37,002 nucleotides of DNA from Holophagaceae bacterium (GTDB lineage Bacteria > Acidobacteriota > Holophagae > Holophagales > Holophagaceae). Position numbers and translations under genes: made by a program. Shown here in pieces: positions 8,793-36,483 of this stretch. The stretch lies in assembly GCA_003165415.1 (NCBI GenBank), contig PLUC01000184.1:1-37002 (forward strand). Direction: 5' to 3'. Numbering within the stretch: the stretch's first letter is position 1; every line of letters begins with the position of its first letter. The notes under the pieces were generated by a model, which saw only the letters and a program-made list of their open reading frames with translations, had not been told where the DNA came from and did no database searches.

Positions 8793-9887
8793 ATGCGAGT
8801 TGCAGGGACCGTTCTGCTGACATTGACCCTGACCGTGGCCGCCCAGAGCCAGGAGCCAGGACACCTGGGGCCGGCCCCCACCCGGGACCAATTTCCCATA
8901 AATCTGGAGACGCTCACCTACGTACCGGCCCCGCCCGACGTCCTGCCGGCCGGCGCCTTCGAGGCGAATTTGCAGTGCGTGGAGGCCAACACCTTCGAGT
9001 TCTCTGACCTCATCAAGGATGCCCTGCAGCAAGGGAACCCATCCCAGCGCCTCAGCATCAGCCTGCCCCAGGCACAACAGTTTGCGGCGCAGAACCGGAA
9101 GGTCCCGTTAATTTTCTTCTTCCAAATGGAAACGACCCTGACCACCCTTCGGCTACGTGCGGGATTGGGGGATGGCCGGGAGGCCTGGGTCATGTTGCCC
9201 GTCCTCAGGTGGTCCGGCGGCTTCGAGGACGGCCTGATCGACTGGACCCACCAAACCTTCGGGTTCAACCAGACTGGTCGCAACTACATAGAACATAACC
9301 AGGTGCGGGTTGTCGTGATCCAGTATGGGAAGGTGACCGAATACTCCGACCACAGTGGCGGCTCAAGACTGCTGGATCCAGTGCTGGGACTCACCCAGAG
9401 CCTCTATGACAGTGGTGCCTGGTCCCTGGCCGCCAGCATCCAGGTGAAGCCGGCGGTGGTTCCCAGTCTGTACGATTCCCGCTCGGGGGTGGACTCGGGC
9501 CTCCAATTCACCAGCCGATGGACCCCCAACGCATCCATGGACACCTATTTCGGGATCGGTGGCGTGCACCGGCAATCCGGCAACCGCACGTTCAACGAAT
9601 ATGGATTCCGGGATCAGCTGGGGGCCCACGCGATGATCGAGGGTTGGCGCACCAGCGCCTGGCGCCCCTTCTTCCAGCTGGTTTATCTCACCGGAGCCAC
9701 GCGCTCCTCGCCAGGGCATAGCCTGAGCAAGTCCTCCCTTCAGCACGACCTGGGTGTCCATTGGGTATGCAAACCCAACCTGGTGTTCACCTTGCGCTAT
9801 ATGAACAACATCACCAACAACGAGAACACCGCGGACATGGCCCTGATCGTGGAGGGCACCTGGCGCTTTGGGAAGGGACGATCATGA
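8793..9887 (+). CDS. DUF3187-type outer-membrane protein
   Basis: A 364-residue exported protein. A short signal peptide (MRVAGTVLLTLTLTVAAQS) is followed by a mature region rich in alternating aromatic/hydrophobic strands (VMLPVLRWSGGFEDGLIDW; TDW/YFGIGGVH; RPFFQLVYLTGATRSS), ending in strand-like segments LVFTLRYMNN and EGTWRFGKGRS. It fits the DUF3187 family of predicted beta-barrels, whose function is unknown. The TGA overlaps the ATG of the efflux-channel gene (ATGA, four bases), so the two are translationally coupled and probably act together at the outer membrane. The ribosome site is weak. A sigma-54-like promoter candidate lies at 8693. Confidence 0.72.
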   Translation: MRVAGTVLLTLTLTVAAQSQEPGHLGPAPTRDQFPINLETLTYVPAPPDVLPAGAFEANLQCVEANTFEFSDLIKDALQQGNPSQRLSISLPQAQQFAAQNRKVPLIFFFQMETTLTTLRLRAGLGDGREAWVMLPVLRWSGGFEDGLIDWTHQTFGFNQTGRNYIEHNQVRVVVIQYGKVTEYSDHSGGSRLLDPVLGLTQSLYDSGAWSLAASIQVKPAVVPSLYDSRSGVDSGLQFTSRWTPNASMDTYFGIGGVHRQSGNRTFNEYGFRDQLGAHAMIEGWRTSAWRPFFQLVYLTGATRSSPGHSLSKSSLQHDLGVHWVCKPNLVFTLRYMNNITNNENTADMALIVEGTWRFGKGRS

Positions 9888-11404
9888 AGTACTTCATCGG
9901 TCTTCTTTCCCCAAATGTCCCGCCTGGAATTATTTGGGAGGACCCTTCGCGCCAGCGCCGGGCACCAAGGTTGTTGATCTTACCGGTGGTGGGCGCCCTG
10001 TTGGCGCAAACGGCCTGCCTGGTGGCCCCGAATGACACCGCCCCCAAGCCAGCGGGTGCACCGGTCAGTCTCACCGCTGGCCAGACGCCTTCGCAGGCTC
10101 CGGTCAGCTCCTCCGCTGCTGATGCTGCCAGCACCCATTGGTGGAGGACTCTGGATGATCCGGAACTTGAGCGTTTGTTTGAAAGAGCCGAGGCCCAGAA
10201 CCTGAGTCCGCGGGTCGCGGCCTCCCGGGTGCGCGCGTCCAGGGCGCGCTTGAGCATGGACCCAGGCGAACGCCATTCAAGCCCGAAGGGAACAGCGGCC
10301 CCGGCCGATTTCTGGCAGCAAGGGTTCGATGCCACCTGGGAGATTCCCCTGTTTGCCGTACAGGGGCGTCACGGGACCGCGACCGATCGGGCGGCGCCAG
10401 CCGATGAGCGGAACGATGCCATGGTTTCCCTGCTGGCAGAGGTGGCTCGGGATTACCTGGAACTGCGCATTCTGTGGCATCGATCCGGGCTCGCGATCGA
10501 CAACCTCGTCATTCAGGAGGGTGTTCTTGAGCTGACTAGCTCCCTTGCCCATCAGGGGTTGGCCACGGACATGGATTTCTCGCGGGCCCAGAACCAGTTG
10601 GAACTGACCAGGGCCCAGGTGACACCAATCCAAGACGGGATCGCCAAGCTCGAACATGCGATCGCCCTCCTGCTGGACCAGGACCCCGGCGCGCTTGCTG
10701 CCGAACTTGACAGGCATGGCCCGGTGCCCGCCGTTCCTTCCTTGATGGGACCCGGCTTGTCGTCCAATCTTCTTCGTTGTCGCGCGGATGTGCGCCGAGC
10801 AGAGCAATGGGTCAAAGCCACCAACGCCCGCACCGCCGCAGCCCTGGCCCATGACTACCCCAGGTTTACCCTTACCGGAAGCTTCCCATACGATTCGGCC
10901 AGGTTCTCGGCCGCCATCGCCGGCACTGGCCGATCCTTTCCCGGACGCCCTGGGGCCATTCGGGATCTATCTGATTTCAGCCAGACCGCCGCCTTGGCGG
11001 CCCATGAAATGGGAAACGAGCAACTGGCCCTTCTGGCCTACCAGTACACCCTCCTGTCGGCCTTGCGCGATGTGGAAGACGCTCTGACGGCCTTTCGCGA
11101 GGGGCAAGAGCATGACAGGAGCCTGGTCCAGGCCGTCGATCTGGCGAGCCAGGCACTCCAGGCTTCTCGCAGTCGGTACATGATGGGAACCATCAACTAC
11201 TTGGAGGTACTGGAAGCAGAGCGGCAACTGCTGTTGTCGCAGGATGGCCTGGCCCAATCCCGGCAGGCCGTCGCTTTGCATTTGGTGGCGCTCTATAAAG
11301 CGCTGGGTGGCGGTTGGGAGAATGGATCGCTTGGCAATGCGTTGGTTAACAATTGCTGGGCGAGATCTCGCATGGATCCTCCATTCCCCAAGCTGGACCC
11401 CTAG
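9884..11404 (+). CDS. RND-type outer-membrane efflux channel (NodT/OEP family), orphan
   Basis: About 506 residues from the ATG at 9884, which overlaps the stop of the DUF3187 gene. The N-terminus has a hydrophobic export segment (LLILPVVGALLAQTAC) with a possible but non-ideal lipobox cysteine. Family hallmarks are THWWRTLDDPELERLFERAE, then EVARDYLELRIL, LLRCRADVRRAEQWVKA, DYPRFTLTGSFPYDSARF, and the late LSALRDVEDALTAF and GTINYLEVLEAERQLL repeats. Such trimeric channels link RND or MFS pumps to the outside. No pump or adaptor gene accompanies it, so it must pair with components elsewhere, perhaps those at 21.9-27.4 kb. The stretch where relatives have the conserved GPxIxxPIFDGGRL reads differently (see findings), so function is uncertain. 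Confidence 0.82.
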   Translation: MKYFIGLLSPNVPPGIIWEDPSRQRRAPRLLILPVVGALLAQTACLVAPNDTAPKPAGAPVSLTAGQTPSQAPVSSSAADAASTHWWRTLDDPELERLFERAEAQNLSPRVAASRVRASRARLSMDPGERHSSPKGTAAPADFWQQGFDATWEIPLFAVQGRHGTATDRAAPADERNDAMVSLLAEVARDYLELRILWHRSGLAIDNLVIQEGVLELTSSLAHQGLATDMDFSRAQNQLELTRAQVTPIQDGIAKLEHAIALLLDQDPGALAAELDRHGPVPAVPSLMGPGLSSNLLRCRADVRRAEQWVKATNARTAAALAHDYPRFTLTGSFPYDSARFSAAIAGTGRSFPGRPGAIRDLSDFSQTAALAAHEMGNEQLALLAYQYTLLSALRDVEDALTAFREGQEHDRSLVQAVDLASQALQASRSRYMMGTINYLEVLEAERQLLLSQDGLAQSRQAVALHLVALYKALGGGWENGSLGNALVNNCWARSRMDPPFPKLDP

Positions 11405-15544: not shown

Positions 15545-17206
15545 TCACGAAGCCCATTCCTCGCCCAGAATCCCCAGCTTCTTCAATCGGGAGTTCAAGG
15601 TCGAGCGCTTCAGGCCAAGGCGCTCGGCGGCGCCCTCGGGGCCGCCTTTGACGCCCCGGCAATCCCGCAAGGCCTTCCGGATCTCCTCGCGTTCAACCTC
15701 CTTCAGGGACCGGGGAGAAGGAGGGGCCTCCCTCCCCTGGGGGCGCTTGAGGTCGGCGAGCGGGACATTCAATTCCGCGCCCTGGCTCAGGATGACCGAC
15801 CTTTCGATGATGTTCTGGAGTTCCCTGATGTTGCCGGGCCAGGACCAGGCGACCAGGCGTGCCATGGCCGAGGTCGGAATGTGTTCGATCCTGCGGTTCA
15901 GTTGCCTGGCGAATTTCTGGGTGAAGAAGGCAACGAGGCCCGGGATGTCCTCTTTCCTCTCCCGGAGCGGCGGAACCTGGATCGGGAAGACGCTGAGTCG
16001 GTAGAACAGGTCCTGCCGGAACCGGCCGTCCTCCACCATGGCTGACAACTGGTGGTGGGTGGCCGCGATGATCCTCACGTCCACCTTCTGGGTCACCGTG
16101 CTGCCCAGTCGCTCGAACTCCCGCTCCTGGATGGCCCGGAGCAGCTTGGGCTGAAGTTCCAGGGGCAGATCACCCACCTCGTCCAGAAAGAGCGTTCCCT
16201 GATGGGCCAGTTCGAAACGTCCCAGCTTCCGCTGGATGGCGCCCGTGAAGGCCCCGCGCTCGTGGCCAAAGAGTTCGCTCTCGACGAGCCCGAGGGGAAT
16301 GGCCGAGCAGTTGACCTTCACGAAGGGCCGATCCCGGCGCCGGCTTTGCTTCTGGATGGCCCTCGCCAGCAGTTCCTTGCCGGTTCCCGTTTCGCCCAGA
16401 AGCAGGACCGTGGCGTCTGAAGGCGCCACGGTCTTGATCTGCTCGAGGACGCGCATCAGCGCCGGACTCTTGCCGACAATCTCCCGGGTGGCGAAATCAC
16501 TTTCGACCTCCTCCTGGAGGAAGTGCTTCTCCTCGGCAAGTTTGTCCTTCAGGACTTGGAGATTCCGGTAGACCAGGGCATTGTCCAGGGCAATCGCGAA
16601 TTGGACACCGATCTGCCCTAGCAAGCGGCCTTCCTCCTGGGTGAAATGACTTTCTTCCAGGCTCCCGAAGCTGAGGCACCCCAGCAGTTCGCCCCTCGAG
16701 AGCAGGGGCACGCAACACAAGGACCGGATGCCCGCCGTTTGCAGCTGGTGCCGGCTCTGGGCATTGAGCCGCGCGATCCGCTCAGGGTCAAGGACGTCCA
16801 ACTGCCCGGTTCGAAAGGCCTGTTCCGTGGGCAGGCCCGCCAAAGGGCCCCGAAGGGGTTTGGGTAGCTCCCGTCCTTCCGGTCGGTGCAGGAATAGCAT
16901 GCATTCCGATTCGCCACCCGGTTCCAGGAGGCTCAGGCCCATGAATTCATGGCGGATCTCCTGCCAGAGTGCGTTGGACATGGCCTGGAACAAACGCTCC
17001 GGCTCCAGTTGGCTGGCCAGGAGATTGTTGAGCCGGAGGACCAGGGCCAGATGGTCCCGGTCCCGCTCGAGCTGCAGGTTGCGCGCCTTCTGCCCAGCCA
17101 GCAAGGCAAGGCGGTGTCTCGGGCCTTTGCCGGGACGCATCCTCCGGATTTCGGGTGCCCGGGTCGGGGTCGGAGACGCTTGGGGATCGGGGCGGAGTTC
17201 GCTCAT
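15545..17206 (-). CDS. sigma-54-dependent activator 1: GAF, AAA+, Fis-type HTH
   Basis: 553 residues from the ATG at 17206, chosen because it gives the same length and alignment as its paralogue at 27980-29641. In-frame alternatives at 17233 and 17275 exist and no start has a strong ribosome site. A coiled N-terminal segment and GAF domain (about 50-225) are followed by a helical linker and the AAA+ domain: Walker A GETGTGKE with K277, GAFTGA loop (317-322) that contacts sigma-54, Walker B TLFLDEVGDLP, and the WPGNIRELQN segment. The C-terminal Fis-type helix-turn-helix ends in RLGLKRSTLNSRLKKLGI. There is no receiver domain, so the signal is probably a small ligand of the GAF domain (FhlA/NorR logic). 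Targets unknown; the MscS gene 206 bases downstream has no recognisable sigma-54 promoter. Confidence 0.9.
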   Translation of the reverse strand: MSELRPDPQASPTPTRAPEIRRMRPGKGPRHRLALLAGQKARNLQLERDRDHLALVLRLNNLLASQLEPERLFQAMSNALWQEIRHEFMGLSLLEPGGESECMLFLHRPEGRELPKPLRGPLAGLPTEQAFRTGQLDVLDPERIARLNAQSRHQLQTAGIRSLCCVPLLSRGELLGCLSFGSLEESHFTQEEGRLLGQIGVQFAIALDNALVYRNLQVLKDKLAEEKHFLQEEVESDFATREIVGKSPALMRVLEQIKTVAPSDATVLLLGETGTGKELLARAIQKQSRRRDRPFVKVNCSAIPLGLVESELFGHERGAFTGAIQRKLGRFELAHQGTLFLDEVGDLPLELQPKLLRAIQEREFERLGSTVTQKVDVRIIAATHHQLSAMVEDGRFRQDLFYRLSVFPIQVPPLRERKEDIPGLVAFFTQKFARQLNRRIEHIPTSAMARLVAWSWPGNIRELQNIIERSVILSQGAELNVPLADLKRPQGREAPPSPRSLKEVEREEIRKALRDCRGVKGGPEGAAERLGLKRSTLNSRLKKLGILGEEWAS

Positions 17207-17296
17207 GGTTGTCCGAAGGGGGGCAAACCTCATTGCAACCGAACCGGGGATGGGGAGATTGGGGGCTAGATACATGACTTTCAACCTTTAACAGAT

Positions 17297-21167: not shown

Positions 21168-21899
21168 TCATTCTTCCGGTGGAAAGGCGGACTGGGAGGG
21201 CCCCAGGCCCCGCAGAACGAAGTCCGTCAGGTGGTCGGCGAGGGATGCCAGGCTGGCCTCGGCGAACCCCGCTTTGCCGAAACTGGGCACCACACCCTTG
21301 TAGGTCAAGAAGAACAGGAGCTGGCCGTAGATGCCCATGCCGATGGCGAGGGCGGACCGGGCATCGAGGTCAGGACGGATGGCCTGGATGCAGTGGTTCA
21401 TGTAGTTGGCATGGGGGCGGGCGGCAGCCAGCACCAGGGTTTCCGTTTCCGGAACGGGAGCGGCCAGTTCCCGCAGGAAGAGCTTGATCAGGGCAAGGGT
21501 GAAGGCACCTTCTCCATCAGCGGGCGGGGGCGCCGGAAGGGTGAAGTGCAGGAAGGTCCGGATGGTCTCCCGGAGCGCGGCTTCGGCTCTCGGCCGGGTG
21601 TCAGGCTCCTCTTCGCCGGGAAGAGCTGGAAAGGAATCCACCAGAGATTCAACCTGGCGGCAGGCCAGGCTTACGGCCGCCTGGTGGATCCCTTCCTTCC
21701 CACCGAAGTGGTAGGAGATCAACGAACTGTTTTGGCCGGCCGCGCCGGCGATTTCCCGGATCCCCACGCCCTCGTGACCCTTCTTGGCAAACAGGAGGAT
21801 GGCGGCTTTGAGCAGCCGGGATTTCGCCTCACCCTCGCCCGCGGCAGTGCCCGGGATTCCAATCCCTTCTATTCCGGCGGTGTTGCTGACAGTGATCAT
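21168..21899 (-). CDS. TetR/AcrR-family repressor
   Basis: 243 residues from the ATG at 21899 (GAGGCGGAAATCC precedes it). The N-terminal DNA-binding domain is clear: SRLLKAAILLFAKKGHEGVG, IREIAGAAGQNSSLISYHF and GGKEGIHQAA, followed by a helical ligand domain with hydrophobic C-terminal helices (ALAIGMGIYGQLLFFLTYKG). The second-domain style resembles the CecR/DUF1956 type, often found beside RND or ABC efflux genes. It starts 11 bases after the stop of the RND-channel fusion and is followed after one base by HD-GYP, so it is inside the operon and may autoregulate it in response to a pump substrate. Confidence 0.88.
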   Translation of the reverse strand: MITVSNTAGIEGIGIPGTAAGEGEAKSRLLKAAILLFAKKGHEGVGIREIAGAAGQNSSLISYHFGGKEGIHQAAVSLACRQVESLVDSFPALPGEEEPDTRPRAEAALRETIRTFLHFTLPAPPPADGEGAFTLALIKLFLRELAAPVPETETLVLAAARPHANYMNHCIQAIRPDLDARSALAIGMGIYGQLLFFLTYKGVVPSFGKAGFAEASLASLADHLTDFVLRGLGPSQSAFPPEE

Positions 21900-21910
21900 G
21901 GATTTCCGCC

Positions 21911-24900
21911 TCAATGTCGGCCGAGCAGCTGATCAAGCTCGGCATAGGCCAGGTCAAGTCCCAGGCGGGCCGCGAGGAGGTCGGCCTGGGCCAACTTGGC
22001 GGTGGCTTGGGCTCCGGCTTGCTTCGCCTCGGAAATCGTGCCGGCCCGCAGCTGGTTTTCCGCCAGGCGCGCCTCCTCGGTCCTCAGTGCGCAGGCTTCT
22101 TCCGCGGCCTCGGCCTCGAGCCTGCAGGTCTCCACCTTGCGCATGAGCCTGCCTAGGTCGATCTCCACCCGCTGGCGGAGCCGGTGCTGGTTTTCCGAAG
22201 CCTGGTTCACCAGCGCTGAGCGCACGCTGACGACGTTTCTCTTGCGGCCCCCGTCGAAGATCTTCCAGGTCAGGGTGAGGCCGACCGTGGTGCTGTTCTG
22301 AGGAATGAAGGGAACTCCCTCCTCGTGGGTCTGGGCCGCGAAAGCGCTGACCTCCGGGATGAAGTCCGCCTTGGCCGCGCGCAGGGCGCTCCGGCTCTTT
22401 TCCGTGGTGGCGGCGGCCGAGGCCAGCTCCGGGTTTTCCTTCACGGCAACCTCCAGCAGCGCCTCCTGCGGGGCCAAGGGCATCGTGCGCGGGACGAAAG
22501 GAACCAGGTCCAGCGGCGTGCCCTGGGGAGTGTCGGTCAGGTCATCGAGTTCCGAGGTCAGGTCGGCCAGGGAAGCCTCGGCGGCGAGGCGCTTATGCCG
22601 ATTCTGGAGCAGCAGGGCGCGGCTGCCGGTCTGGACCACACCCAGGGCGTTGCCGGCCTTGACGGCCCGCTGGGCATCCTGGTCCTGGGCCTCGGCCGCC
22701 TGCACCCCGGCCTCGGAGGCTTCCATCTGGGCCTTGGCGATGAGCAGGCCGGCATAGACCTGGCGCGTCTTGTAGGCGATTTCCGCCTCCATTTTGCGCA
22801 GTTCCGCTTCCGCGGCCCGTTCCTCGGCGGAGGCCACCTCGTTGCCATGGTGGATCTTGGCCAGCTGGGAGAGCGGCTGGCTGACGGTCAGGCTCTGCAG
22901 GTAGAAGTCCTTCTTGCCCTGAGTGGTGTTCACATCCTGGCTCGGGAAGGGGCCCAGGCCGGGAACGATGCCCAGGGTTCCCGCCGGGATCTTGACGGTG
23001 GGGGACTCATTGCGATGGGTCAGGGCCGCGTCGGCTTCCAGCTGGGGAAAATAGTCGGCGCGAGCCACCCGGTGCCTGGCGCGGGCTTCCTCTACCTTGG
23101 CCCGGGCGATGCGGATGCCGGAGCTGTGCTGCACTGCGCTGGTCACGGCTTCTTCCAGGGTCATGGACCGCGGCGCCTCGGCCGCGCGCAGGGACGGGGC
23201 GGCCGCCAGGATGGCCAGGAGGGCCAGGACGGCGCCGGCGCCGGAGGTGCGGTTGCGCCCGCGGAAGACCAGGACGTAGATCACCGGGACCACCAGGAGC
23301 GTGAAGAACATCGAGAACACCAGACCCACCGCAAGGACGCTGGCGAGGGGGCTCCAGAGCTTCGAGCCCGACAGGATCATGGGCGTGACGCCCACGGCCG
23401 CGGCCATGGTGGTGAGGAAGATGGGACGGAGCCTGCGTTCGCCGGCCTGGCGCGCGGCGTCCTCCAGAGTGTTCCCCTCCCTCAGCTTCTCCTTGATGTA
23501 GTCGACGAGGATGATGGCATTGCGCACCACGATTCCGCAGAGGCTGATCATGCCCATGAAGGCGGTGAAGCCGAAGGAATTGCGGGTTATCAGCAGGCCC
23601 ACCACAACGCCCAGCAGCGACAGGGGAATGGAGGACATGACCACGAGGGGCTCAGTGAGGTTGCGGAACTGGAGCATGAGGATCAGGAAGATGGCGAGGA
23701 GACTGATGGAGAGCGCGACGACCATCTCGGGCAAGGTTTCGGCTTCATTGGCATGTTCCCCGCCCAGCTCGAACCGGAAGCCCGGCGGCAAGGGCAGCGC
23801 CTGGATCCTGGGCAGGACGTCCTTGAGGATCGCCGAGCCATAGACGCCGGGTGCGGGATAGGCGCGCACGGTGAGGGTCGGGACGCCGTTGCGACGGACG
23901 ATGCGGCTGGTCTGCCAGGCAGGCGCCATATTGGCGATGGCGCGGAGCGGGACACGGCCTTCCCCGACCGTGGAGTCCACGTAGGTGTCGCGGACATGGT
24001 CGAAGCTGGACCGATGCTCGGGATCGAGCCGAAGCACGATGTCGACGGCCCGGTCCCCCTCCCAGAAGGTGCTGATGGGGGCGCCGTCGAAGCCGCCGTT
24101 GAGCAGCTGCGAGACGCCTGCATGGGTCATGCCGAGCCGGTTGGCCAGCTCCGCGTTGATGTTGATGTCCGCCATCGGGCTGTCGTTGCGGTAATCGGTG
24201 TGCACGAAGCGTGCGCGGGAATCGGCCCGTAACAGGTCACCGACCTGCCCGCCAATGGCCTTGAGCTGGGTGATGTCGTCCCCGGAAACCCGGATCTCAA
24301 TCGGGGCTTCCATGGTGGCCCCCTGCTGCAGTTCCTGGACCAGGACCATGGCCTCCGGCGCCAGCCGCATGAGGCGGGTCTGAAGGTCGGCCACCAGTGC
24401 GGTGGTCGCCTTGACGCTGGTGGTATTGACGATGAATTGCGCGTAGGCCGAATCCGGCTGCTGGGGGTTTACGTTGTAGTAGAAGCGCGGAGAACTCTGC
24501 CCCACGAAACTGGCGAAGTGCTCGACCGTCTTGTCCGACCGGAGCTCATGTTCGATGCGTTTGACCACGGTGTCGGTGGCCTCGATGCGGCTGCCCTGGG
24601 GCATCCAGACATCGACCACGAACTGGTTCCGTTCGGCGTTGGGAAAGAACTGCTGGGGCACGTAGCGGAAGGCCCATGCGCCGGCCACGGTGCCGATAAC
24701 GCCCAGCCCCACGGCCAGAGCCGGTTTGGCCATGAAGAGACGTATGCCTTTCCGGTACGCCGCCTGGAGGGCGTCCAGGGGGCTGAATTTCTTGGCGCCT
24801 CCGGTGGGTTCCGCTACGTGGTCATGCAGCCCTTTCATGATGAAAGTGCGGCAAAGCAGCGGGGTCAGGAAGATCGCCACCAGGAAGGACACTGACAGGG

Positions 24901-26314
24901 CGACGGCCACGGTGATGGGCAGGGCCAGGATGAATTCCCCCGAGCTGCCGGAGATGATGATCAAGGGCAGGAAGGAGGCGATGATGGTGAGGGTGGCCGT
25001 CAGGACCGGGACCAGGACTTCCGAAGGGGCCTTCCAGGCCGCCTCCAGGCGCGGGACCTTGTGGTCCAGGAGTTCCACGTAGTTGTCGGCGATGACGATG
25101 GCGTCGTCCACCACGATTCCCAGGACCAGGATCAAGGCCGCGATGGACACCTGATGGAGCTGGATCCCGATGGCGTTCATCACCCCGAGGGTGGTCAGCA
25201 TCGTGGTGGGGATGGCCAGGGCCGCGATGATGGCGACCCGCATTGGCAGGAGCAGGATGGTCACCAGGATGACGCAGCCGATGGCGATGAGGAACTCGTG
25301 CCCCATGCCGGCGATGCGCTCCTCGACAACCTTGGGCTGGTTGGCGATGTAATCCATGTGCAGGTCCGGCGGAAGCAGGGGCCGCAGCCGTTCCAGGGCC
25401 TTGGACACCTTCTCCCCCATAACGACGATGTTGTTGCCCTTCTGCATTTCCACCGATATCAGCAAGGCCGGTTTGCCGTCGTAGCGGGTCATGAAGGTGG
25501 GGTCCTGGTAGCGGCGTTCGACCTGCGCCAGGTCGCCGATGTAGGTCGGCTGGCCCGCGGGCGAGAGCCCGACCATGGTCTTCCGGATCTCTTCCTCGGT
25601 ATTGAAGAGCCCCGTGGTGTGCAGGGGGACCTGCTCCGCGTCGGTGCGCAGGCTGCCCGCGCTCTGGACCACGTTCCGTTCGCCGAGGGCCCCGGCCACC
25701 TTCCGTGGATCGGTGAAGTACTGGCTCATGCGCTCCATGCTGCTGGTCACCCAGATCTGCTCGGTCTGGTTGCCGTAGACAGCGATCTTGCCCACTTCCG
25801 GCACGGTGCGCAGGGTGTCCTTGATCGTGTCCACGTAGTCCTGCAGCTCGCGGTAACCGTAGCGGTCGCCGCTCACCGCCACCAGCATGGCCACCGTGTC
25901 GCCAAAGTCGGAATCCACCACCGGGCCCTGCACCTGGGGCGGCAGTTCCGTCGCCTTCACCAGGAGCATCTCATTGCGGAGCTTGGCCCAGAAGACATCG
26001 GGGTTCTTGACGTTGTTCTCCAGTTCGACGTTGATGACCACCAGGCCCGGGCGGCTGGTGGAGTAGGTCTTGTTCTTGCGCACCTCCTGGAACTTGAAGA
26101 TGTGGGCTTCCAGGGTCTTGGTGACCTGCTTCTCCACCTGTTCGGAGGTGGCCCCGGGATAGGCCGCGGCGACGATGCCGGTGCGGATGGTGATGGCAGG
26201 GTCCTCGGTGCGGGGCATGCCCATGAGGGCCTTCAATCCCACCAGGACCGTCATGATGGCGATGATGGCCGTCAGGGTGGGATACCGCAGACAGGCCTTG
26301 ATGAGTCCGTTCAT
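21911..26314 (-). CDS. RND efflux permease fused in frame to a TolC-type outer-membrane channel
   Basis: One 1467-residue frame. Residues 1 to about 1020 are a full RND (HAE1-type) permease: first helix TLTAIIAIMTVLVGL, porter domains, proton-relay aspartates D403-D404 in LVLGIVVDDAIVIADNY, and last helices ending VVPVIYVLVF. A basic stretch (RGRNRTSG, 1018-1025), a hydrophobic run (AGAVLALLAILAAAPS) and a signal-peptidase-like site LRA/AEA (1042-1047) follow. From 1045 on there is a complete outer-membrane factor of about 423 residues (MTLEEAVTSAVQHSSGIRIA; TWKIFDGGRKRN; final AYAELDQLLGRH). No ATG or TTG lies between the last RND helix and the hydrophobic run; only in-frame GTG codons near 1008-1011, with poor ribosome sites, could start the channel separately. 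The adaptor gene ends two bases before its ATG (GAGAGGAAATAGAC upstream). Permease and channel are normally separate genes. Confidence 0.88.
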   Translation of the reverse strand: MNGLIKACLRYPTLTAIIAIMTVLVGLKALMGMPRTEDPAITIRTGIVAAAYPGATSEQVEKQVTKTLEAHIFKFQEVRKNKTYSTSRPGLVVINVELENNVKNPDVFWAKLRNEMLLVKATELPPQVQGPVVDSDFGDTVAMLVAVSGDRYGYRELQDYVDTIKDTLRTVPEVGKIAVYGNQTEQIWVTSSMERMSQYFTDPRKVAGALGERNVVQSAGSLRTDAEQVPLHTTGLFNTEEEIRKTMVGLSPAGQPTYIGDLAQVERRYQDPTFMTRYDGKPALLISVEMQKGNNIVVMGEKVSKALERLRPLLPPDLHMDYIANQPKVVEERIAGMGHEFLIAIGCVILVTILLLPMRVAIIAALAIPTTMLTTLGVMNAIGIQLHQVSIAALILVLGIVVDDAIVIADNYVELLDHKVPRLEAAWKAPSEVLVPVLTATLTIIASFLPLIIISGSSGEFILALPITVAVALSVSFLVAIFLTPLLCRTFIMKGLHDHVAEPTGGAKKFSPLDALQAAYRKGIRLFMAKPALAVGLGVIGTVAGAWAFRYVPQQFFPNAERNQFVVDVWMPQGSRIEATDTVVKRIEHELRSDKTVEHFASFVGQSSPRFYYNVNPQQPDSAYAQFIVNTTSVKATTALVADLQTRLMRLAPEAMVLVQELQQGATMEAPIEIRVSGDDITQLKAIGGQVGDLLRADSRARFVHTDYRNDSPMADININAELANRLGMTHAGVSQLLNGGFDGAPISTFWEGDRAVDIVLRLDPEHRSSFDHVRDTYVDSTVGEGRVPLRAIANMAPAWQTSRIVRRNGVPTLTVRAYPAPGVYGSAILKDVLPRIQALPLPPGFRFELGGEHANEAETLPEMVVALSISLLAIFLILMLQFRNLTEPLVVMSSIPLSLLGVVVGLLITRNSFGFTAFMGMISLCGIVVRNAIILVDYIKEKLREGNTLEDAARQAGERRLRPIFLTTMAAAVGVTPMILSGSKLWSPLASVLAVGLVFSMFFTLLVVPVIYVLVFRGRNRTSGAGAVLALLAILAAAPSLRAAEAPRSMTLEEAVTSAVQHSSGIRIARAKVEEARARHRVARADYFPQLEADAALTHRNESPTVKIPAGTLGIVPGLGPFPSQDVNTTQGKKDFYLQSLTVSQPLSQLAKIHHGNEVASAEERAAEAELRKMEAEIAYKTRQVYAGLLIAKAQMEASEAGVQAAEAQDQDAQRAVKAGNALGVVQTGSRALLLQNRHKRLAAEASLADLTSELDDLTDTPQGTPLDLVPFVPRTMPLAPQEALLEVAVKENPELASAAATTEKSRSALRAAKADFIPEVSAFAAQTHEEGVPFIPQNSTTVGLTLTWKIFDGGRKRNVVSVRSALVNQASENQHRLRQRVEIDLGRLMRKVETCRLEAEAAEEACALRTEEARLAENQLRAGTISEAKQAGAQATAKLAQADLLAARLGLDLAYAELDQLLGRH

Positions 26315-26316: not shown

Positions 26317-27399
26317 CTATTTCCTCTCCTGGGACAGTTCTGCGCCCATGCCGTTGCGCAGCATGTTCTGGCCGGCCACCACGATGGATTCCTGGCCCTG
26401 CAGCCCGGACCTGATCTGGACATTTCGTCCGTAGAAGGACCCGATTTCCACTCGTTTGCTATAGACCCTCTGCTGGTCGGGGAAGTACTGGAACACCAGG
26501 GGGGCGCCCTGGGGATCCCGCACGATGGCTTCGGCGGGCACTGTGAGCATGTCCAGGCGCTGCGACCCGGTGATGGAGACTTCGGCGACCATGCCGACCT
26601 TGAGCTCCCGTTGCGGATTGGCCACGCTGACGCGGGCCATGTAAGTGCGCGACGCGGGATCGGCGGAGATGTTCACCACCCGCACGCTGCCCTGGAAGGA
26701 TCGTCCGGGCCATGCCGGGATCGTGACGGTGGCCGATTGGCCCACCTTCACCAGCCTCATGTCGGTCTCGGGGATGCCGACGTTCACTTCGATGGGATCC
26801 ATCTGGGCGATTTCGAACACCGGCTGGCCCGCCCCCACCATGACCCCGGGTTCCATCATCCGGCGGGCGATGAAGCCGCTGATGGGCGCCTTGAGCTGGG
26901 CGTCGGCAAGGTTCCGGCGCGCGGCAGACTCGCCGGCCAGGGCCTGCTGCAGCTGCTCCCGGGAAGCGTCCCGGGCCGCGGTGAACTTGGCGAAATCGTT
27001 GGGGGCGAGGCTTTGGCTGTCGAACAGCTGCTTCATGCGGTCGTATTCCTGCTCGGCCTGGCGCGCCCCGGCACGGGCCGCCTCCACCTGGGCGTGGGCG
27101 GCCTCCAGGGCGTGGGTGAGGTTCTCCGCGTCCAGCGCAGCGATCAGCTGGCCCTGGCGGACCGGTTCGCCCTCCCGGGGGAGCACCTTCACCGCCCGCC
27201 CGGGAACCAGGAAGGCGACCATGGAGGAATTGCCGGGCGAGGTGAGCGTCCCGCTCACGGACACCCTTTCGAACTCCTGGACCTTCACAGGACGGGCGAC
27301 GACGACGGCGGCCTTGGGCTCGGGAAGGTGGCGGTCCGCCCCGTGACCGCAGGCCACGAGCGGCAGGAGGATCAGAGGTATGAGGGATTTAGTAGGCAT
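26317..27399 (-). CDS. RND periplasmic adaptor (membrane fusion protein), lipoprotein
   Basis: 360 residues. A lipoprotein signal with lipobox LVAC gives C17 as the acylated residue, so it is anchored to the inner membrane facing the periplasm. Domain order is as usual for HlyD/AcrA-type adaptors: a first lipoyl half (LVPGRAVKVLPREGEPVRQG), a coiled-coil hairpin (about 95-160, AHAQVEAARAGARQAEQEYD), a second lipoyl half (LKAPISGFIARRMMEPGVMV), a beta-barrel (QSATVTIPAWPGRSFQGSV) and a membrane-proximal domain. It bridges pump and channel. The start at 27399 has AGGG six bases upstream. It lies 102 bases after the STAS gene and two bases before the fused RND gene. It still has a separate adaptor role even though permease and channel are fused. 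Confidence 0.92.
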   Translation of the reverse strand: MPTKSLIPLILLPLVACGHGADRHLPEPKAAVVVARPVKVQEFERVSVSGTLTSPGNSSMVAFLVPGRAVKVLPREGEPVRQGQLIAALDAENLTHALEAAHAQVEAARAGARQAEQEYDRMKQLFDSQSLAPNDFAKFTAARDASREQLQQALAGESAARRNLADAQLKAPISGFIARRMMEPGVMVGAGQPVFEIAQMDPIEVNVGIPETDMRLVKVGQSATVTIPAWPGRSFQGSVRVVNISADPASRTYMARVSVANPQRELKVGMVAEVSITGSQRLDMLTVPAEAIVRDPQGAPLVFQYFPDQQRVYSKRVEIGSFYGRNVQIRSGLQGQESIVVAGQNMLRNGMGAELSQERK

Positions 27400-27979: not shown

Positions 27980-29641
27980 TTACCGGGCCGGCCGGGAAAT
28001 GCCGAGCTTCTTCAAACGGTTGATCAAGGTCGTCCGCTTGATGCCCAGTCGCGCCGCGGCGCCCGAGGGGCCACTGAGGACCCATCGGCTTTGTTCCAGC
28101 ACCTGCAGGATGTGCTCGCGCTCCACGTCTTCCAGGGACTTGGCCGGTCCGGCGTCGCCCGGTTCCGGCGCACCCTGCAGTTCGGCGAGGGGCACCCTCA
28201 GTTCCGCCCCTGGGCTGAGGATGACGGACCGTTCCACCAGGTTCTGCAGTTCCCGGATATTGCCCGGCCAGGGCCAATGGACCAGGGCCTCCATGGTGGT
28301 GGTCGGGATGCGCTCGATCCGACGGCCCATGGCCAGGGCGAACTTCTGGGTGAAGTGCCGCACCAGCGAGGGGATGTCCTCTTTCCTTTCGCGCAGGGGG
28401 GGCACGCGGATGGGAAACACGTTGAAGCGGTAGAACAGGTCGCTGCGGAAGGAGCCTTCGGCCACCATCGCCGCCAGGTCCCGGTGGGTGGCGGCGATCA
28501 GGCGCACATCCACGTGAATGGTCCGGTTGCTTCCCAAGCGCTCGAATTCCCGCTCCTGGATGGCGCGCAGGAGCTTGGGCTGGAGCTCCAATGGCAGGTC
28601 ACCCACTTCGTCCAGGAACAGCGTGCCCTGGTGGGCCAGTTCGAACCGTCCGACCTTCTGCTGGATGGCGCCGGTGAATGCTCCGCGCTCGTGGCCGAAC
28701 AGCTCGCTCTCCAGCAATCCCAAGGGGATGGCTGAGCAGTTCAGCTTCACGAAGGTACGGGCCCGGCGCTGGCTCTGCTCGTGGATCGCGCGGGCCAGAA
28801 GCTCCTTGCCCGTGCCCGTGTCGCCCAGGAGCAGGACCGTGGCATCCGACGGGCCGACGATGGCGATCTGGTGCATCACGCGCTGCAAGGCCGGGCTGTC
28901 CCCGATGATCTGGTCGGTGGCGAAATCCCGCCGGACCTCTTCTTCCAGGTAGAGCTTCTCCTCCGCCAGCTTGTCCCGGAGCAGGCGGATCTCCTGGTAG
29001 GCCAGGGCATTGTCCAGGGCGATGGCGACCTGGATAGCCACCTGCTCCAGCAGGCGGATGATCTCGCCCTGGATGGGGCTTTCATCCCGGCTGCCCAGGG
29101 CGAGGACCCCAAGCGTCCTGCCAAGCGCAATCAGGGGCACGCAGTAGAGGGAGCGGATGCCTTCCCTTACAAATAGGTTCCGGAACTCCACGGATTCCAG
29201 GGCAGCGACGCGCTCCGGGCCGAGGAAATCGGTCCGGCCGGTCTGTATCGCCGTCCAACCTGGGGAGGACCGCACCGGCGACCGGATGTTCAAATGCTGG
29301 CGCCCCCGCCCCGGTTCCAACGGGTTATCCAGAAACCGGAGGCAGTCGACTTGGCCGTCCTCCTCAAGGACCGCGACGCCCAGGTAGTAGTGTTGAGTAT
29401 GCTCAAATAGTGCCGAGGAGACCGCTTCGAAAAGCTTCTGGGGTTCCAGTTGGTTGGCCAGCAGGTTGTTGATGCGGAGCACCAGGGATTGCAGGTCCCG
29501 TTCCCGTTCCAGCGTCAGAATCCGCCCGGCTTGGCGTGAAAGGGTCCGGATGCGCCGGCTCGCGCGGTAGCGCCCACCGCCCAGGAGCCGTCCCCTCGCA
29601 GGCTGGTCGGGCTTCATCGAATGTGCGGGTGGGGGGGACAT
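27980..29641 (-). CDS. sigma-54-dependent activator 2: GAF, AAA+, Fis-type HTH
   Basis: 553 residues. The start at 29641 is supported by GGAG six bases upstream; an ATG at 29617 and an upstream one at 29689 are less likely. Architecture equals that of activator 1: coiled N-terminus with LVLRINNLLANQLEPQKLFE, GAF domain (about 55-230, SLYCVPLIALGRTLGVLALG), coiled linker, AAA+ with Walker A GDTGTGKE (K279), GAFTGA (319-324), FLDEVGDLP, WPWPGNIRELQN, and C-terminal helix-turn-helix ending RLGIKRTTLINRLKKLGI. It lacks a receiver domain, so a ligand of the GAF domain is the likely signal. The adjacent downstream inverted repeats and sigma-54 promoter make it the natural activator of the STAS-efflux operon. 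Confidence 0.92.
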   Translation of the reverse strand: MSPPPAHSMKPDQPARGRLLGGGRYRASRRIRTLSRQAGRILTLERERDLQSLVLRINNLLANQLEPQKLFEAVSSALFEHTQHYYLGVAVLEEDGQVDCLRFLDNPLEPGRGRQHLNIRSPVRSSPGWTAIQTGRTDFLGPERVAALESVEFRNLFVREGIRSLYCVPLIALGRTLGVLALGSRDESPIQGEIIRLLEQVAIQVAIALDNALAYQEIRLLRDKLAEEKLYLEEEVRRDFATDQIIGDSPALQRVMHQIAIVGPSDATVLLLGDTGTGKELLARAIHEQSQRRARTFVKLNCSAIPLGLLESELFGHERGAFTGAIQQKVGRFELAHQGTLFLDEVGDLPLELQPKLLRAIQEREFERLGSNRTIHVDVRLIAATHRDLAAMVAEGSFRSDLFYRFNVFPIRVPPLRERKEDIPSLVRHFTQKFALAMGRRIERIPTTTMEALVHWPWPGNIRELQNLVERSVILSPGAELRVPLAELQGAPEPGDAGPAKSLEDVEREHILQVLEQSRWVLSGPSGAAARLGIKRTTLINRLKKLGISRPAR

Positions 29642-30224
29642 GAACTTCTCCGTGGATGCGGTCCTTGCCACTGCGAAGGCTGAATTCAAGGCGATGGAGG
29701 AAGACTCAGAAAGCCTTCGCCGCCTGGCTGGCCAGGAACGGATTTTAAACCCGCGGGTTGATGAAGAGTTTGGATTTTTGGGAGTTTCAAGGAGACCATG
29801 GCCAGCCTGTTCCGTTCCACCCGGAGCCGTGCCACGATGGGGAGGCGGCGGAGGCGGATGGCAAGCCTCTGGGCCTTCACCCGGCCGTGGTCCGGGCTTC
29901 GGGGCAGGATTGGGTGGGAGGGATCGTCGGCCATGACTGATTCCTGGTTTCTCGGTTTAACCCGCCCTGGCCCGCGACGATGAAGTTCAGGAGCCGGTGT
30001 TGGGGTCATGGGAAACCACCCGGTTGCCTCCTCTTCCCTCGGCCTGGTAAAGGGCCTAGTAGGTCTAGTATTAGGGTGTCTAGGCCGATTGGCCGTCTAT
30101 AAATATGGGGTCATCCGGCAAATCGTGGGGTGAAGGGGGGCTGCCCCAGGACCGATCTTGGCCATTCTGATGGCGTCCTGACGGCCCTATAGAAGGGTCG
30201 CCGCCAAGTGCCTTACCGTAGTGG
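29642..30224. other. intergenic stretch without a supportable gene
   Basis: Short frames occur on both strands around 29690-30009 (one minus-strand frame starts MADDPSHPILPRSPDHGRVK; one plus-strand frame has AAGGAG before the ATG at 29798) but none shows a domain or convincing codon bias. GGCCTAG and CTAGGCC near 30053-30092 form a loose inverted repeat. The stretch contains the promoter region of activator 2 and the border of the mobile-element remains. Confidence 0.4.
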
Positions 30225-31139: not shown

Positions 31140-31889
31140 ATGATTGAGGCCGCTCCAACAGCGCAGAGTCCCCGCAGCACCGCTGCCCTGATCCGGCACC
31201 GGATCGAGGCCGGGGGGGAGCGATTATGGCGCATGGAGGACTTCCGAGAGCTTCCGTTCCAGGCTGTCGCCCAGGCGCTCTCCCGCCTTGCCAAATCCGG
31301 GGTGATCGAGCGACTCAGCAAGGGCGTCTACTACCGCGCCCGACCGACGGCACTGGGCAGAAGCCGCCCGAATCCGGCCAGCCTACAGAAGCTGGTTTCC
31401 CCCAGACAGAAGGTCTACCCGGCCGGACTCGCTGCGGCGAACCTTCTGGGGTTTACCACCCAGTCTGGACCGCAGTTGGAACTGGCCACCAGCGGGTTGA
31501 GCCTTCCCCGAAAACTGGTGGGCAACGAAGCCGTGATCCATACCCGGAGGCCTGAGGCATGGGCCGGGTTGACAGAAATTGAAGCGGCCCTGCTGGATTT
31601 TCTCCGGCGGGGAGGGCAGCTGACCGAGTTGCCACCGGAGGAAACGACACGCAAGGTGCTGGTGCTGCTCGCTGAGCCCGGGCGGTTTGAGCGCCTGCTG
31701 AAGGTTGCACGGACGGAACCCCCAAGGGTTCGCGCTATGCTGGGCGCTATCGGCGAAGAGCTTGGTATGGCTCCGCGGGGGCTTCGGCAATTGCGGGCCA
31801 CTCTGAACCCCATTTCCAGGTTCGCTTTCGGCGCCCTGCACGTCTTGCCGAACGCACGGATCTGGCAGGCCAAGGAATCATTCCCATGA
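31140..31889 (+). CDS. abiEi: AbiEi-type antitoxin/transcriptional repressor (DUF6088-like)
   Basis: 249 residues. The N-terminal part is a winged-helix domain (STAALIRHRIEAGGERLWRM; QAVAQALSRLAKSGVIERLS; KGVYYRARPTALGRSRPN). The C-terminal part (YPAGLAAANLLGFTTQSGPQ, LATSGLSLPRKLVG, LTEIEAALLDFLRRGG) is typical of antitoxins of type IV AbiE systems. The antitoxin represses its own operon and counteracts the toxin without binding it. The stop overlaps the toxin's ATG by four bases (ATGA), so the two are translationally coupled. The ribosome site is weak (CTGGGGC). GC content is nearer the genome than its AT-rich promoter. A perfect inverted repeat lies 30 bases upstream. Confidence 0.82.
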   Translation: MIEAAPTAQSPRSTAALIRHRIEAGGERLWRMEDFRELPFQAVAQALSRLAKSGVIERLSKGVYYRARPTALGRSRPNPASLQKLVSPRQKVYPAGLAAANLLGFTTQSGPQLELATSGLSLPRKLVGNEAVIHTRRPEAWAGLTEIEAALLDFLRRGGQLTELPPEETTRKVLVLLAEPGRFERLLKVARTEPPRVRAMLGAIGEELGMAPRGLRQLRATLNPISRFAFGALHVLPNARIWQAKESFP

Positions 31890-32734
31890 AGCTGTATGAA
31901 CACCCGGATTTCGAGCAGGCCATCCTCCAGGCCGCAGAACATTTCCGCGACCGCGGTCTGCGCCCGGCGATCATCGAAAAGGACTACTACGTCACCGAGA
32001 CCTTGCGCGTCGTGGCGATGACTCATGGCGACCATGTGATCTTCAAGGGCGGGACCAGCCTGTCGAAAGGGTGGGACCTGATCCAACGGTTTTCCGAGGA
32101 TGTGGATCTGTTCCTGGATCCACTCGCCTTCGAGCCGGTCCTGGGCAAGCGAGGCATCGACCGGGAATTGAAGAAGCTGCGGGATGCGGTGGCCCAGCAT
32201 CCTGGCCTGGCCTTGCTGGGAGGCGAGAGCCAGACCATTGGCGGTTTTGGTCGAACAGATCGGTTCTCCTATCGGCAAATGTTCGGCGCGGTGGGCGAGG
32301 TGGCCAATCGGGTTCTGCTCGAGGCCGGTGCCGCAAGTGGTCGGGAACCTACCGTGGTGGTGGAGCTTCGCTCTATCCTCAGCGAGTTTCTTGAGGCCAA
32401 GGGCGTTTCTCTGGGGGCTGAGGACGAAGGGCGATTCACCATGCGGCTGCTGCATTTTCGCCGGACCTTCGTCGAGAAGATGTTCGCCATTCACAGCAAG
32501 GTTGAACTGCTCAAACGGGACCACCGGGGCTTGGGCACCTACGCCCGCCATTACTACGACTTGTTCCAGTTGGCTGGCCGGGATGAAGTCCTGGATATGT
32601 TACGAAGCGACGAATATGTGGCCATCAAGAACGACTATGCCAGCCGCTTTCGGGCCGCGACCAGCCGGTCCTTGGGCGACCCGGAGCGCTTTAGTCCCTC
32701 CAGGGAATGGATCATCGAAAGGACATGCTTGTAG
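31886..32734 (+). CDS. abiEii: AbiEii nucleotidyltransferase toxin
   Basis: 282 residues of the AbiEii/AbiGii family, DNA-polymerase-beta-like nucleotidyltransferases that stop growth, best known for abortive phage infection and for modifying tRNA. The active-site motif FKGGTSLSKGWDLI (GGTS at 55-58) and the metal-binding acidic pair in FSEDVDLFLD (D72, D74) are intact. Later conserved parts are RRTFVEKMFAIHSKVELL and RHYYDLFQL. Relatives usually continue past the SPSREW position with a further helix pair; here the protein stops at IIERTCL, so the C-terminus may be slightly shortened. It is coupled to the antitoxin gene by a four-base overlap. It is followed after 120 bases by the convergent CoiA-like gene. 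Confidence 0.85.
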   Translation: MKLYEHPDFEQAILQAAEHFRDRGLRPAIIEKDYYVTETLRVVAMTHGDHVIFKGGTSLSKGWDLIQRFSEDVDLFLDPLAFEPVLGKRGIDRELKKLRDAVAQHPGLALLGGESQTIGGFGRTDRFSYRQMFGAVGEVANRVLLEAGAASGREPTVVVELRSILSEFLEAKGVSLGAEDEGRFTMRLLHFRRTFVEKMFAIHSKVELLKRDHRGLGTYARHYYDLFQLAGRDEVLDMLRSDEYVAIKNDYASRFRAATSRSLGDPERFSPSREWIIERTCL

Positions 32735-34011: not shown

Positions 34012-36483
34012 TTAAAAATCAGATTGGATGACGTCGCCTGCCGGGAAAAGGGGCATGCGCGCGCCCTCCTCCATGGTCTCATAGCCCATGGCCCGGTATC
34101 CCTTCATCCGCTTCTCGAACATCTTCCGGAAAACCGGCAGGGAATCGTCCAGGTAGTCGTAGATCCGGACCTCGCACTTGCCGGGGTGCTCGCGGTGCAG
34201 GCGCCCCGCGTACTGAATGAGGGTGCCCTTCCAGGCGATGGGCATGGCCATGAAAAGAGTGTCCAGGCGAGGATCGTCAAAGCCTTCCCCGATATAGCGT
34301 CCGGTGGCGAGGATGAGGCGGGGCTCATCAGGGGGCACCTGGCCCAGACGCTCCAGAGCCGCCCTGCGGAGCTTTGCGGAGACGCCTCCGTGGAGAACCA
34401 CCACATGCCGAGCGGCATCCCGCAGGCCTCCGGCCAGCAGGTCCAGGTGCTCCCTGCGTTCCGTGAGGACGATGGGGCTTCGGCCTTCCTCAAGGGTTCT
34501 CCGGACATCTCGGATGATCAGGTCGTTCCGGAAGGGATCCGCCACCAGTGCGCCATAGAGATCCTGGATGGTCCCCTGGCCATTAAACCGGGTTTCCCGG
34601 ACGACGAGGCGGCTGGTGAAGGCCGGCTCCTCGCCCCCGGAGCCTCTCCGGGCCTGGAACCGCACGGGGCCGCACTGGAAATGCAGAAGACGCGGAAGAC
34701 CGTCCCGACGATAGGGTGTGGCGGTCAGGCCCAGGACATGCTTGGCTCGGACCTCCCGCATCACGCGCTCGAAATTGAGGGCCGGGGCATGGTGGCATTC
34801 GTCGATAATCACTTGTCCATACTGGCCCACCAGATCACTGACACCCTCGCGGGAGGCCAGGCTCTGGATCATGGCTACATCGATGCACCCCGTCGCTTTC
34901 TGTCTGCCGCCGCCGATCTGTCCCACTTCCTTGGCGCCGAGCCCCAGGAAGCGCTGAAGCTGGGAACGCCACTGGTCCAGGAGGGGTTTGCGGTGCACGA
35001 GCACCAGCGTGTTCACCCCCCGAAGGGCCGCCATATAGGCCCCCAACACGGTCTTTCCGGAACCGGGCGGAGCGACGAAGATCCCCAGGTCGAAGGGCTG
35101 CATGGCCTCTACAGCCTGCTGCTGCATGGCGGTGAGTCGGCCCTGGAATGTCCATTCGACGGGAGTCCCGGGGTTCCGCTGCTCTTCCACCACCAGCCTG
35201 CTGCCCAGATCGGCCAGGAGCGCCTCCAAGTCCTCCCGGCAGCCTCGGGGCAGAGCGAGGTGCTGGTCGTGTTCCTCCGCTGAGCAGATGATTCGGGGAG
35301 TGTCCCAGGTGGAAAAACGCATGCCCTGCTTCTTGTAGAACTCCGGGTTCTGGAAGGCCGCCAGCCGCTTGAGTTCGGCCAAGAGCGCAGAGGGCAGTCC
35401 AGCCTTCTCCACGAAGATCTGCTTGGCGAGGATGGCCCGGACGGTGTCGGGAACCGTCCCCACGATCCTGGGCCTCCTGGCCTTCCCCGAGGGGGGACGC
35501 TCCCAGGGAGTCGCTTCCAACCCGTCTTCCAGGGGATCCATACGAACACCAAGGATACGGCCCTGGTGGGAGGCTGTCCCAACCAGGCGCTCGACCTCGT
35601 CGGGGTCCATTCGGCGCTGAGCGGCCAGGATACTCCATGGATCCGGCCACGGTTCCAGAGCTTCGTTGAGGAAAAGGGTATTGCCCTTGGCGCGGCAAGT
35701 CAGCTGGAGGGGAAGGGCGATGAGGTTTCCGAAGCCGCCCTCGGGCATGTTGTCCTGGTTCGGGAACAGGCGATCGTAGGAGGTCATCTTCAGCTGGGGG
35801 CGGCGGTCCATGGTCTCCGTAAGGAGGAGGCAGCCCAGCTTCCGGGCGGTGGCCGCGGGGATGGGAGCGCTGAAGAAGATCCACAGGTGGGCGCCGTTGC
35901 CTGAACGGCTGCGCTCAACGAGGGCCGGTACCGCCAGCTCCCGGCAGGTGTCCAGGACAGCCCGGACATCCTCCCGCCACCCGTCCTTGTCGAAATCGGC
36001 CGCCAGGAACCAGCACGTTTCGTCCTTGAGCATGGCGTAGACCCCGAGGGTATGACGTCCCTGCAGATGGTCCAGGATCGCCTGGTCGTCCAAGGGGGCG
36101 AAGCTGCGGTTCGGGCACTCCCCGCACTTGACCCTTGGCCAATCGCAGAGGATCCGGTTCTTCTCGTTGACACACACTGGCTTGTAGCCATGGAGGACCT
36201 TGCCGTTCTTGTCCTTCTTTTTCGGGTTTTCCCAGTAACGCGGGTAGACGTCTTCCCGGCCTCTAAAGAGGCTGCGGAACAGGGCCACCTTCGCATCCCG
36301 GCTCGCAGGCCCAGGTGTGGGCTCAGGCAGGTCTTCGGCTGGAGTAAGCGCTACGATTGTAGCTTTCAGCCTGAGGATCTCCTGCTGGGTGGCCTCGACC
36401 TGGCGGATCTCGTCTGCAAGCCTCGCTTCTAGGGCTTTCAGACAGTTGCACAAATCGACACGATCCGGGGGGTACGTCTCCAT
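34012..36483 (-). CDS. primase-helicase of the TOTE conflict-system type
   Basis: 823 residues. A coiled-coil N-terminus (12-45) precedes an archaeo-eukaryotic-type primase domain (about 65-290): four cysteines C104, C113, C120, C123 (zinc), the catalytic DFD (163-165) in FLAADFDKDGW, and the histidine motif SGNGAHLWIFF (H199). A middle region leads to a superfamily 2 helicase (about 445-800). Its motifs are Walker A APPGSGKT (K477), DECH (561-564), LTATPYRRDG and the arginine-finger motif QYAGRLHREH. Proteins with this primase-helicase fusion are classed as TOTE conflict systems, thought to act in defence or mobile-element conflict. The start at 36483 lacks a ribosome site nearby (AAGGAG is 20 bases away), and an in-frame TAG excludes any earlier ATG. 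The CoiA-like gene follows on the same strand. Confidence 0.85.
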   Translation of the reverse strand: METYPPDRVDLCNCLKALEARLADEIRQVEATQQEILRLKATIVALTPAEDLPEPTPGPASRDAKVALFRSLFRGREDVYPRYWENPKKKDKNGKVLHGYKPVCVNEKNRILCDWPRVKCGECPNRSFAPLDDQAILDHLQGRHTLGVYAMLKDETCWFLAADFDKDGWREDVRAVLDTCRELAVPALVERSRSGNGAHLWIFFSAPIPAATARKLGCLLLTETMDRRPQLKMTSYDRLFPNQDNMPEGGFGNLIALPLQLTCRAKGNTLFLNEALEPWPDPWSILAAQRRMDPDEVERLVGTASHQGRILGVRMDPLEDGLEATPWERPPSGKARRPRIVGTVPDTVRAILAKQIFVEKAGLPSALLAELKRLAAFQNPEFYKKQGMRFSTWDTPRIICSAEEHDQHLALPRGCREDLEALLADLGSRLVVEEQRNPGTPVEWTFQGRLTAMQQQAVEAMQPFDLGIFVAPPGSGKTVLGAYMAALRGVNTLVLVHRKPLLDQWRSQLQRFLGLGAKEVGQIGGGRQKATGCIDVAMIQSLASREGVSDLVGQYGQVIIDECHHAPALNFERVMREVRAKHVLGLTATPYRRDGLPRLLHFQCGPVRFQARRGSGGEEPAFTSRLVVRETRFNGQGTIQDLYGALVADPFRNDLIIRDVRRTLEEGRSPIVLTERREHLDLLAGGLRDAARHVVVLHGGVSAKLRRAALERLGQVPPDEPRLILATGRYIGEGFDDPRLDTLFMAMPIAWKGTLIQYAGRLHREHPGKCEVRIYDYLDDSLPVFRKMFEKRMKGYRAMGYETMEEGARMPLFPAGDVIQSDF

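Follow-up and report, generated by a model that had tools for sequence, protein, structure and literature searches.

Several described systems come close to the locus presented here. FbcH, the cytochrome b/c1 precursor of Bradyrhizobium, holds two subunits of a membrane complex in one chain, and these are separated through an internal signal sequence. Fusions of RND pumps to OEP channels are present in protein databases for the CusA/CzcA type. Among natural fusions of tripartite-pump parts, passages of PMC4446572 cite adaptor-adaptor fusions, e.g. DSY0927, as a clue to stoichiometry; according to the same passages, OMFs are trimers, AcrB and CusA are trimers as well, and 3:6:3 models of the assembly dominate. 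MexJK-OprM/OpmH and TriABC-OpmH are among the pumps listed in passages of PMC8277102. We found no fusion of an RND pump with a channel described in titles and abstract openings of open-licence literature, among the matches listed, and the passages of PMC8277102, PMC4446572, PMC7558416 and PMC9629497 make no mention of one.

The locus resembles pumps of the MexJK/TriABC type in its nearest solved permeases, in the adaptor gene upstream and in the OMF fold of its channel, but their channel is separate and here it is fused to the pump. It shares with DSY0927 the natural fusion of tripartite-pump parts; DSY0927, however, joins two adaptor copies instead of pump and channel, and the passages of PMC4446572 mention no internal export signal for it. 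The FbcH precursor serves a respiratory complex in one membrane, whereas the second product of our gene would be destined for the outer membrane. All parts are known, and it is their pump-channel arrangement that is unusual and apparently little described in the literature searched.

We analysed a stretch of 37,002 nucleotides (hereafter the window), which is contig PLUC01000184.1 of a Holophagaceae bacterium (assembly GCA_003165415.1; 4.84 Mb, 273 contigs). Its features of interest are collected in Table 1. According to the reading of open frames, the fused gene starts with ATG at 26314 and stops with TGA at 21911-21913. A sequence-only reading had placed a complete HAE1 permease and a complete TolC-type channel in this one frame. 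Pfam agrees as to both halves, since ACR_tran is matched nearly completely (profile positions 2-1020 of 1021) and OEP is matched as two stretches, the better of which ends at residue 1465 (152.7 bits for the protein), with no stop in the 1467 residues. The RND permease therefore stands, while HAE1 is a loose label for it: the pump scores well under the NCBIfam curated cut-offs for HAE1 and the named multidrug RND subfamilies (best 512 versus 1250; TIGR00915 420.8, cut-off 940.35), and is below that of the heavy-metal RND model TIGR00914 as well (341.8, cut-off 701.45). As the channel half scores 97.6 with TIGR01844, a subfamily model of the TolC family with a cut-off of 225.15, by its profile matches it is an OEP protein outside that subfamily. 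Residues D403 and D404, which we take from their position in AcrB to be the paired aspartates of the TM4 proton relay, are invariant in all 12 aligned rows. Among the best 60 of 83 matches to solved sequences, the closest permeases are MexK (9xwg, 20yy) and that of 6vej, presumably TriC. None of these 60 exceeds 1069 residues, so none joins a pump to a channel.

Table 1. Fused gene, its parts and its direct neighbours (window positions; residues are those of the fused protein)
Feature	Position	Strand	Details
Whole open frame: RND permease, predicted internal signal peptide, outer-membrane channel	21911..26314	-	1467 aa, stop-free
RND permease domain (ACR_tran), residues 5-1016	23267..26302	-	Pfam 621.8 bits
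Basic lead (n-region) after last pump helix, FRGRNRTSGAG, residues 1017-1027	23234..23266	-	net charge +3
Hydrophobic core, residues 1028-1039	23198..23233	-	12-aa Kyte-Doolittle mean 2.89
c-region with predicted signal peptidase I site LRA/AE after A1044	23183..23197	-	site rule made for this analysis
Mature outer-membrane channel (TolC/OEP type, predicted), residues 1045-1467	21914..23182	-	Pfam OEP, fold match
Periplasmic adaptor (RND_mfp), directly upstream	26317..27399	-	TIGR01730 239.3 bits, above cut-off 94.9
TetR-type regulator, directly downstream	21168..21914	-	PF00440 and CecR_C

The adaptor gene ends two bases upstream of the fused frame. Of 53 related loci, 48 have an adaptor beside the permease, namely 45 of the 48 fused loci and three of the five split ones. 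The TetR gene is no fixed part of the locus, because a TetR match is present in just 5 of the 53. Two similar activators of the GAF and sigma-54 type (15545-17284 and 27980-29689, both minus strand) flank the region of patatin, HD, TetR and pump genes. Elsewhere in the window, a 547-residue frame (9761-11404, plus strand) beside a DUF3187 gene gives a second, weak OEP match of 30.6 bits to the C-terminal half of the profile only. Adjacent AbiEi and AbiEii matches (31140-32734, plus strand) form a phage-defence pair of toxin-antitoxin type. Near this pair lies a gene whose 823-residue product combines a primase domain of TOTE type with a ResIII/DEAD helicase (34012-36483, minus strand), and the two may possibly make up a small defence region.

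A search for homologues recovered the same fusion within the family and beyond it. Among the matches listed for 77 family genomes, counting that of the window (G000), a full fusion without a stop was present in 12: in G000, at 70-74% identity in G015, G064, G014, G061, G018, G050, G004, G019 and G067, and at 55-56% in G051 and G069. Further copies are cut by contig ends (G062, G063) or frameshifted early in the channel (G034). In Geothrix fuzhouensis (G008; L024/L132) the front of the gene is gone, with other sequence taking over at about residue 915, and the remainder is still open. Whole or damaged, a close copy occurs in 16 of the 77 genomes among the matches listed, a patchy distribution; the next matches listed are pumps at only 24-29% identity. 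A phylum-wide draw of 396 genomes contained 108 with a match at the chosen threshold, and 29 new loci (L039-L067) were examined. Both halves of the window type stood in one frame in 11 of these 29, nine of which come from genomes of the family scan (these include L047 and L049, both damaged, and L045, cut by a contig end) and two from new ones (G156, G233).

Named genomes yielded 71 loci. Both halves share one frame in 55 of them (some are contig-cut, and L132 is truncated), five have two genes (all from Bacteroidota: L113, L118, L126, L127, L135) and 11 show a pump only, owing to a contig end, a broken copy or a remote match. The one-frame loci belong to Acidobacteriota, Geobacteraceae and other Thermodesulfobacteriota, Deferribacterota (L099, L111, L122, L125) and one Nitrospirae bin (L075); those of other phyla are about 50-62% identical to the window protein over the best segment, and its close kin in named genomes include Geothrix and other Holophagaceae. 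The labels of two further bins, Deltaproteobacteria (L068) and Bacillota (L093), are probably wrong, since the length of the contig and the place of the match indicate that their loci are on contigs of the family genomes G061 and G062. Out of at least 5000 matching plasmid records, three cover at least 80% of the query, and each of these is a one-frame fusion (L160, L161, L162). They are large plasmids of Gemmatirosa kalamazoonensis (Gemmatimonadota) and of two Persicobacter (Bacteroidota), and one Persicobacter RefSeq record names its fused gene of 4404 bases 'efflux RND transporter permease subunit'. A two-gene layout as a rule for Bacteroidota consequently fails: it holds in five loci and is broken by the two fused Persicobacter plasmids. 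Five nearby Acidobacteriota loci also keep pump and channel as two genes, the channel being confirmed by Pfam in two (L139, L143) and represented in the other three by a similar frame behind the pump.

The junction between the two halves deserves closest attention. The basic stretch, the hydrophobic run and the LRA/AEA site that the sequence-only reading had pointed out were all located at residues 1017-1047 (window 23266-23174), in the order FRGRNRTSGAG, AVLALLAILAAA and PSLRA/AEA, where the slash marks the predicted cut; the site here is LRA and not AxA. For comparison, 68 one-frame loci were reduced to 61 distinct junctions, the three plasmid copies not counted. The 68 include the frameshifted G034 copy (L047, channel start only), the 5´-truncated L049 and L132 and the contig-cut L045/L093, L074, L095, L097 and L101; L153 and L157 were dropped, since the pump-end motif missed the end of their pump. 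Because the loci are related and several were entered twice, as genome and as named record, the following counts do not represent independent events.

A 12-residue hydrophobic core is present in all 61 junctions (Kyte-Doolittle mean at least 1.96). In the pump-only control, 14 of 26 rows had sufficient tail for scoring. Of these, 12 remain under 1.0, and the two exceptions (L108, L053) are fusions themselves, one cut by a contig end and one of another type. Net charge between pump profile and core is at least +1 in 60 of 61 junctions and at least +2 in 57. The cleavage site was called by a rule built for this analysis and not by a trained signal-peptide predictor; the best site has alanine at -1 in 57 of 61 junctions and reads AxA in 43, with ASA/EP, ASA/EQ, AHA/ET and AFA/ET as usual endings. 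Weaker sites are those of L068, L074 (LMS/AE), L088 (AAG/QL) and L124 (ARG/ES). Plain AxA, present in 44 of 61 versus 33.3 +/- 3.4 in shuffled junctions (maximum 45), is in modest excess only, and this is a weak test because the sequence is rich in alanine. The motif [AV]xA/[EDQ], in turn, occurs in 39 of 61 versus 5.9 +/- 2.3 (1000 shuffles, maximum 14). The distance from the site to the channel profile has a median of 5 residues and a range of 2-21 over the 61 junctions.

Identity within the linker is about 0.23, versus 0.78 over the last 30 pump residues. In 12 non-overlapping pairs of relatives, pN/pS is highest in the linker (0.52), compared with 0.09 in the final 38 codons of the pump and 0.22 in the first 38 of the channel. 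Differences are distributed over the three codon positions as 70/50/105. Such divergence and such ratios would be expected of a signal peptide that is translated and loosely constrained. Read in its own frame, the linker is free of stops in all 61 junctions; the other frames are open in 26 and 42 (forward) and in 34, 56 and 24 (reverse) of the 61. Openness alone is a modest signal since the sequence is G+C-rich, and conservation at the protein level is the stronger one. By prediction, the junction has the features of a signal peptidase I substrate: a basic lead, a core and small residues at -3 and -1.

Similar junctions are found in fusions of other types. In Acidobacteriota (L145-L152, L154-L156) and in Dyadobacter (L159), inspection by eye located a hydrophobic segment and a small-x-small site before the channel, and Pfam matched RND and OEP in all 12 fusions scanned (L144-L148, L150-L152, L154-L156, L159; L149 was not among them). 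Several of L145-L152 have long basic leads and sites resembling AFA/Q or AWA/Q. The Dyadobacter gene (1959-6350, minus strand, 1463 aa) is a heavy-metal RND-OEP fusion of the CusA/CzcA type and shows the same order, its segment ending in VQA/QD by eye. Its pump is nevertheless of a different RND class than that of the window, with 1177.3 bits for TIGR00914, above the cut-off of 701.45. Together with the conservation of the junction, these fusions lend good support to the internal export signal that the sequence-only reading had suggested.

We consider it quite probable that the gene encodes a polyprotein which signal peptidase I cleaves at an internal signal peptide, so that pump and channel are supplied 1:1. 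RND pumps insert with their C-terminus in the cytoplasm, and the pump half would do so here as well. The basic lead and the hydrophobic core would next act as an internal signal peptide and feed into the Sec route, so that the channel is exported. Signal peptidase I would cut after about residue 1044, leaving a short thirteenth membrane segment on the pump and a free channel on its way to the outer membrane. The adaptor gene and the fused gene would thereby provide the whole tripartite pump from two genes, and a 1:1 supply of pump and channel would suit the 3:6:3 assembly.

The fusion could alternatively exist in DNA only, the channel being translated on its own from a start codon that lies in frame within the pump gene. 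An ATG, GTG or TTG in frame lies near the junction in 59 of 61 loci, an ATG in 18. In at least eight (L044, L077, L088, L099, L111, L122, L124, L125) an ATG directly precedes the basic lead, so a separate start there would yield a plausible signal peptide. On the other hand, in 29 of 61 loci the stretch from the pump-profile end to the core contains no start codon, and no stop has arisen in any linker. A loose set of motifs finds a Shine-Dalgarno-like match in 25 of 61 junctions and in 36 of 38 pump starts. The strict Shine-Dalgarno core stands before 4 of 166 candidate codons (in 4 of 61 loci), versus 32 of 35 pump ATGs, and none of these four loci is among the eight with ATG before the lead. 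This control of pump starts covers 35 of the 61 loci; 21 have no ATG in the stretch, and L009 (the window), L018, L045, L049 and L101 were left out. In the window, the GTG codons proposed earlier as weak separate starts correspond to V1008 and V1011, both inside the last pump helix, and no AGGA, GGAG, GAGG or AAGG was found upstream of V1011 or, by eye, of V1008. Internal initiation is improbable in general, though it may be at work in the loci with an ATG directly before the lead.

The proposal that the two parts stay tethered across both membranes, with the core retained as a thirteenth membrane helix of one uncut chain, can be judged with a structure model of residues 976-1467 (36 aligned sequences; pLDDT 85.5, pTM 0.70). 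The modelled basic lead is mostly a non-helical loop after the last pump helix, partly with pLDDT below 50, the core forms a separate short helix (residues 1027-1037), and residues 1039-1044 are again below 50. The channel is modelled as a complete OMF, with long helices of 73 and 72 residues besides two beta hairpins. It aligns with PDB chains of TolC, OprM and CusC along about 420-450 columns, at a TM-score of about 0.6 (E about 1e-16 to 1e-15). In some OMFs the terminal elements form an equatorial domain, halfway up the periplasmic part (passages of PMC4446572). From the short helix to the first channel elements, the model leaves about 11-15 residues. Some 50 Å of chain would hardly reach such an equatorial domain past the periplasmic part of the pump, as far as can be estimated without coordinates, so an uncut chain could hardly extend as far as the assembled channel. 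Open frames in all 61 junctions and some weak cleavage sites agree with a permanent tether, but it would give no obvious reason for the enrichment of [AV]xA/[EDQ], and we regard it as improbable. Release by signal peptidase appears to be the likeliest outcome.

An error of sequencing or assembly, or decay of the gene as in the frameshifted G034 copy and the shortened one of Geothrix fuzhouensis, has practically no chance as a general explanation, because the same frame is kept intact at 55-74% identity in many separate assemblies, the single-contig genomes G018 and G067 included, and RefSeq annotates the 4404-base fused gene of Persicobacter.

How could a polyprotein with an internal signal peptide have arisen? 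Our trees were quick ones without bootstrap or mixture model, and the first carried a long-branch warning that included L144. It comprised 80 pumps; the truncated L049 was left out of the trees, and L057, L058, L060 and L061 were labelled split from the end of the pump frame alone. In this tree, 60 fused pumps of the window type form one clade (SH-aLRT 98), with five split Bacteroidota and five split Acidobacteriota outside it. The fused label requires at least three changes, and at least four once the three plasmid copies are added. In the latter tree, Gemmatirosa clusters with the fused clade (weak support, 70), and the two Persicobacter group with split Bacteroidota (support 45; 85 for the wider split group). 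The fused L144 is placed among split Acidobacteriota on a long branch. Given the four or more changes of label and the position of Persicobacter and L144 among split pumps, there was probably more than one gain, or loss, of the fusion. In those split relatives whose channel genes were read (L113, L118, L126, L127, L135, L139, L143), the channel begins with an ordinary signal peptide. The simplest history would be that the stop of the pump gene was lost and the signal peptide of the channel kept.

A more far-reaching conjecture, which we rate as unlikely, is that fusion through an internal signal peptide represents a widespread solution for building trans-envelope pumps, one that has evolved repeatedly. 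The nascent pump would bring its channel along into the periplasm, and if cleavage is delayed, channel trimers may be kept beside the pump trimer until assembly, so that the tether would be a step of assembly in addition to a means of 1:1 supply.

Taken together, commonly studied RND pumps are assembled from separately made parts, whereas a conserved polyprotein would fix the ratio of pump to channel genetically. It would also offer a clean system for measuring processing, the timing of cleavage and assembly. Finally, there is a warning for annotation: a gene named as a permease subunit alone may yield two mature proteins in two membranes.
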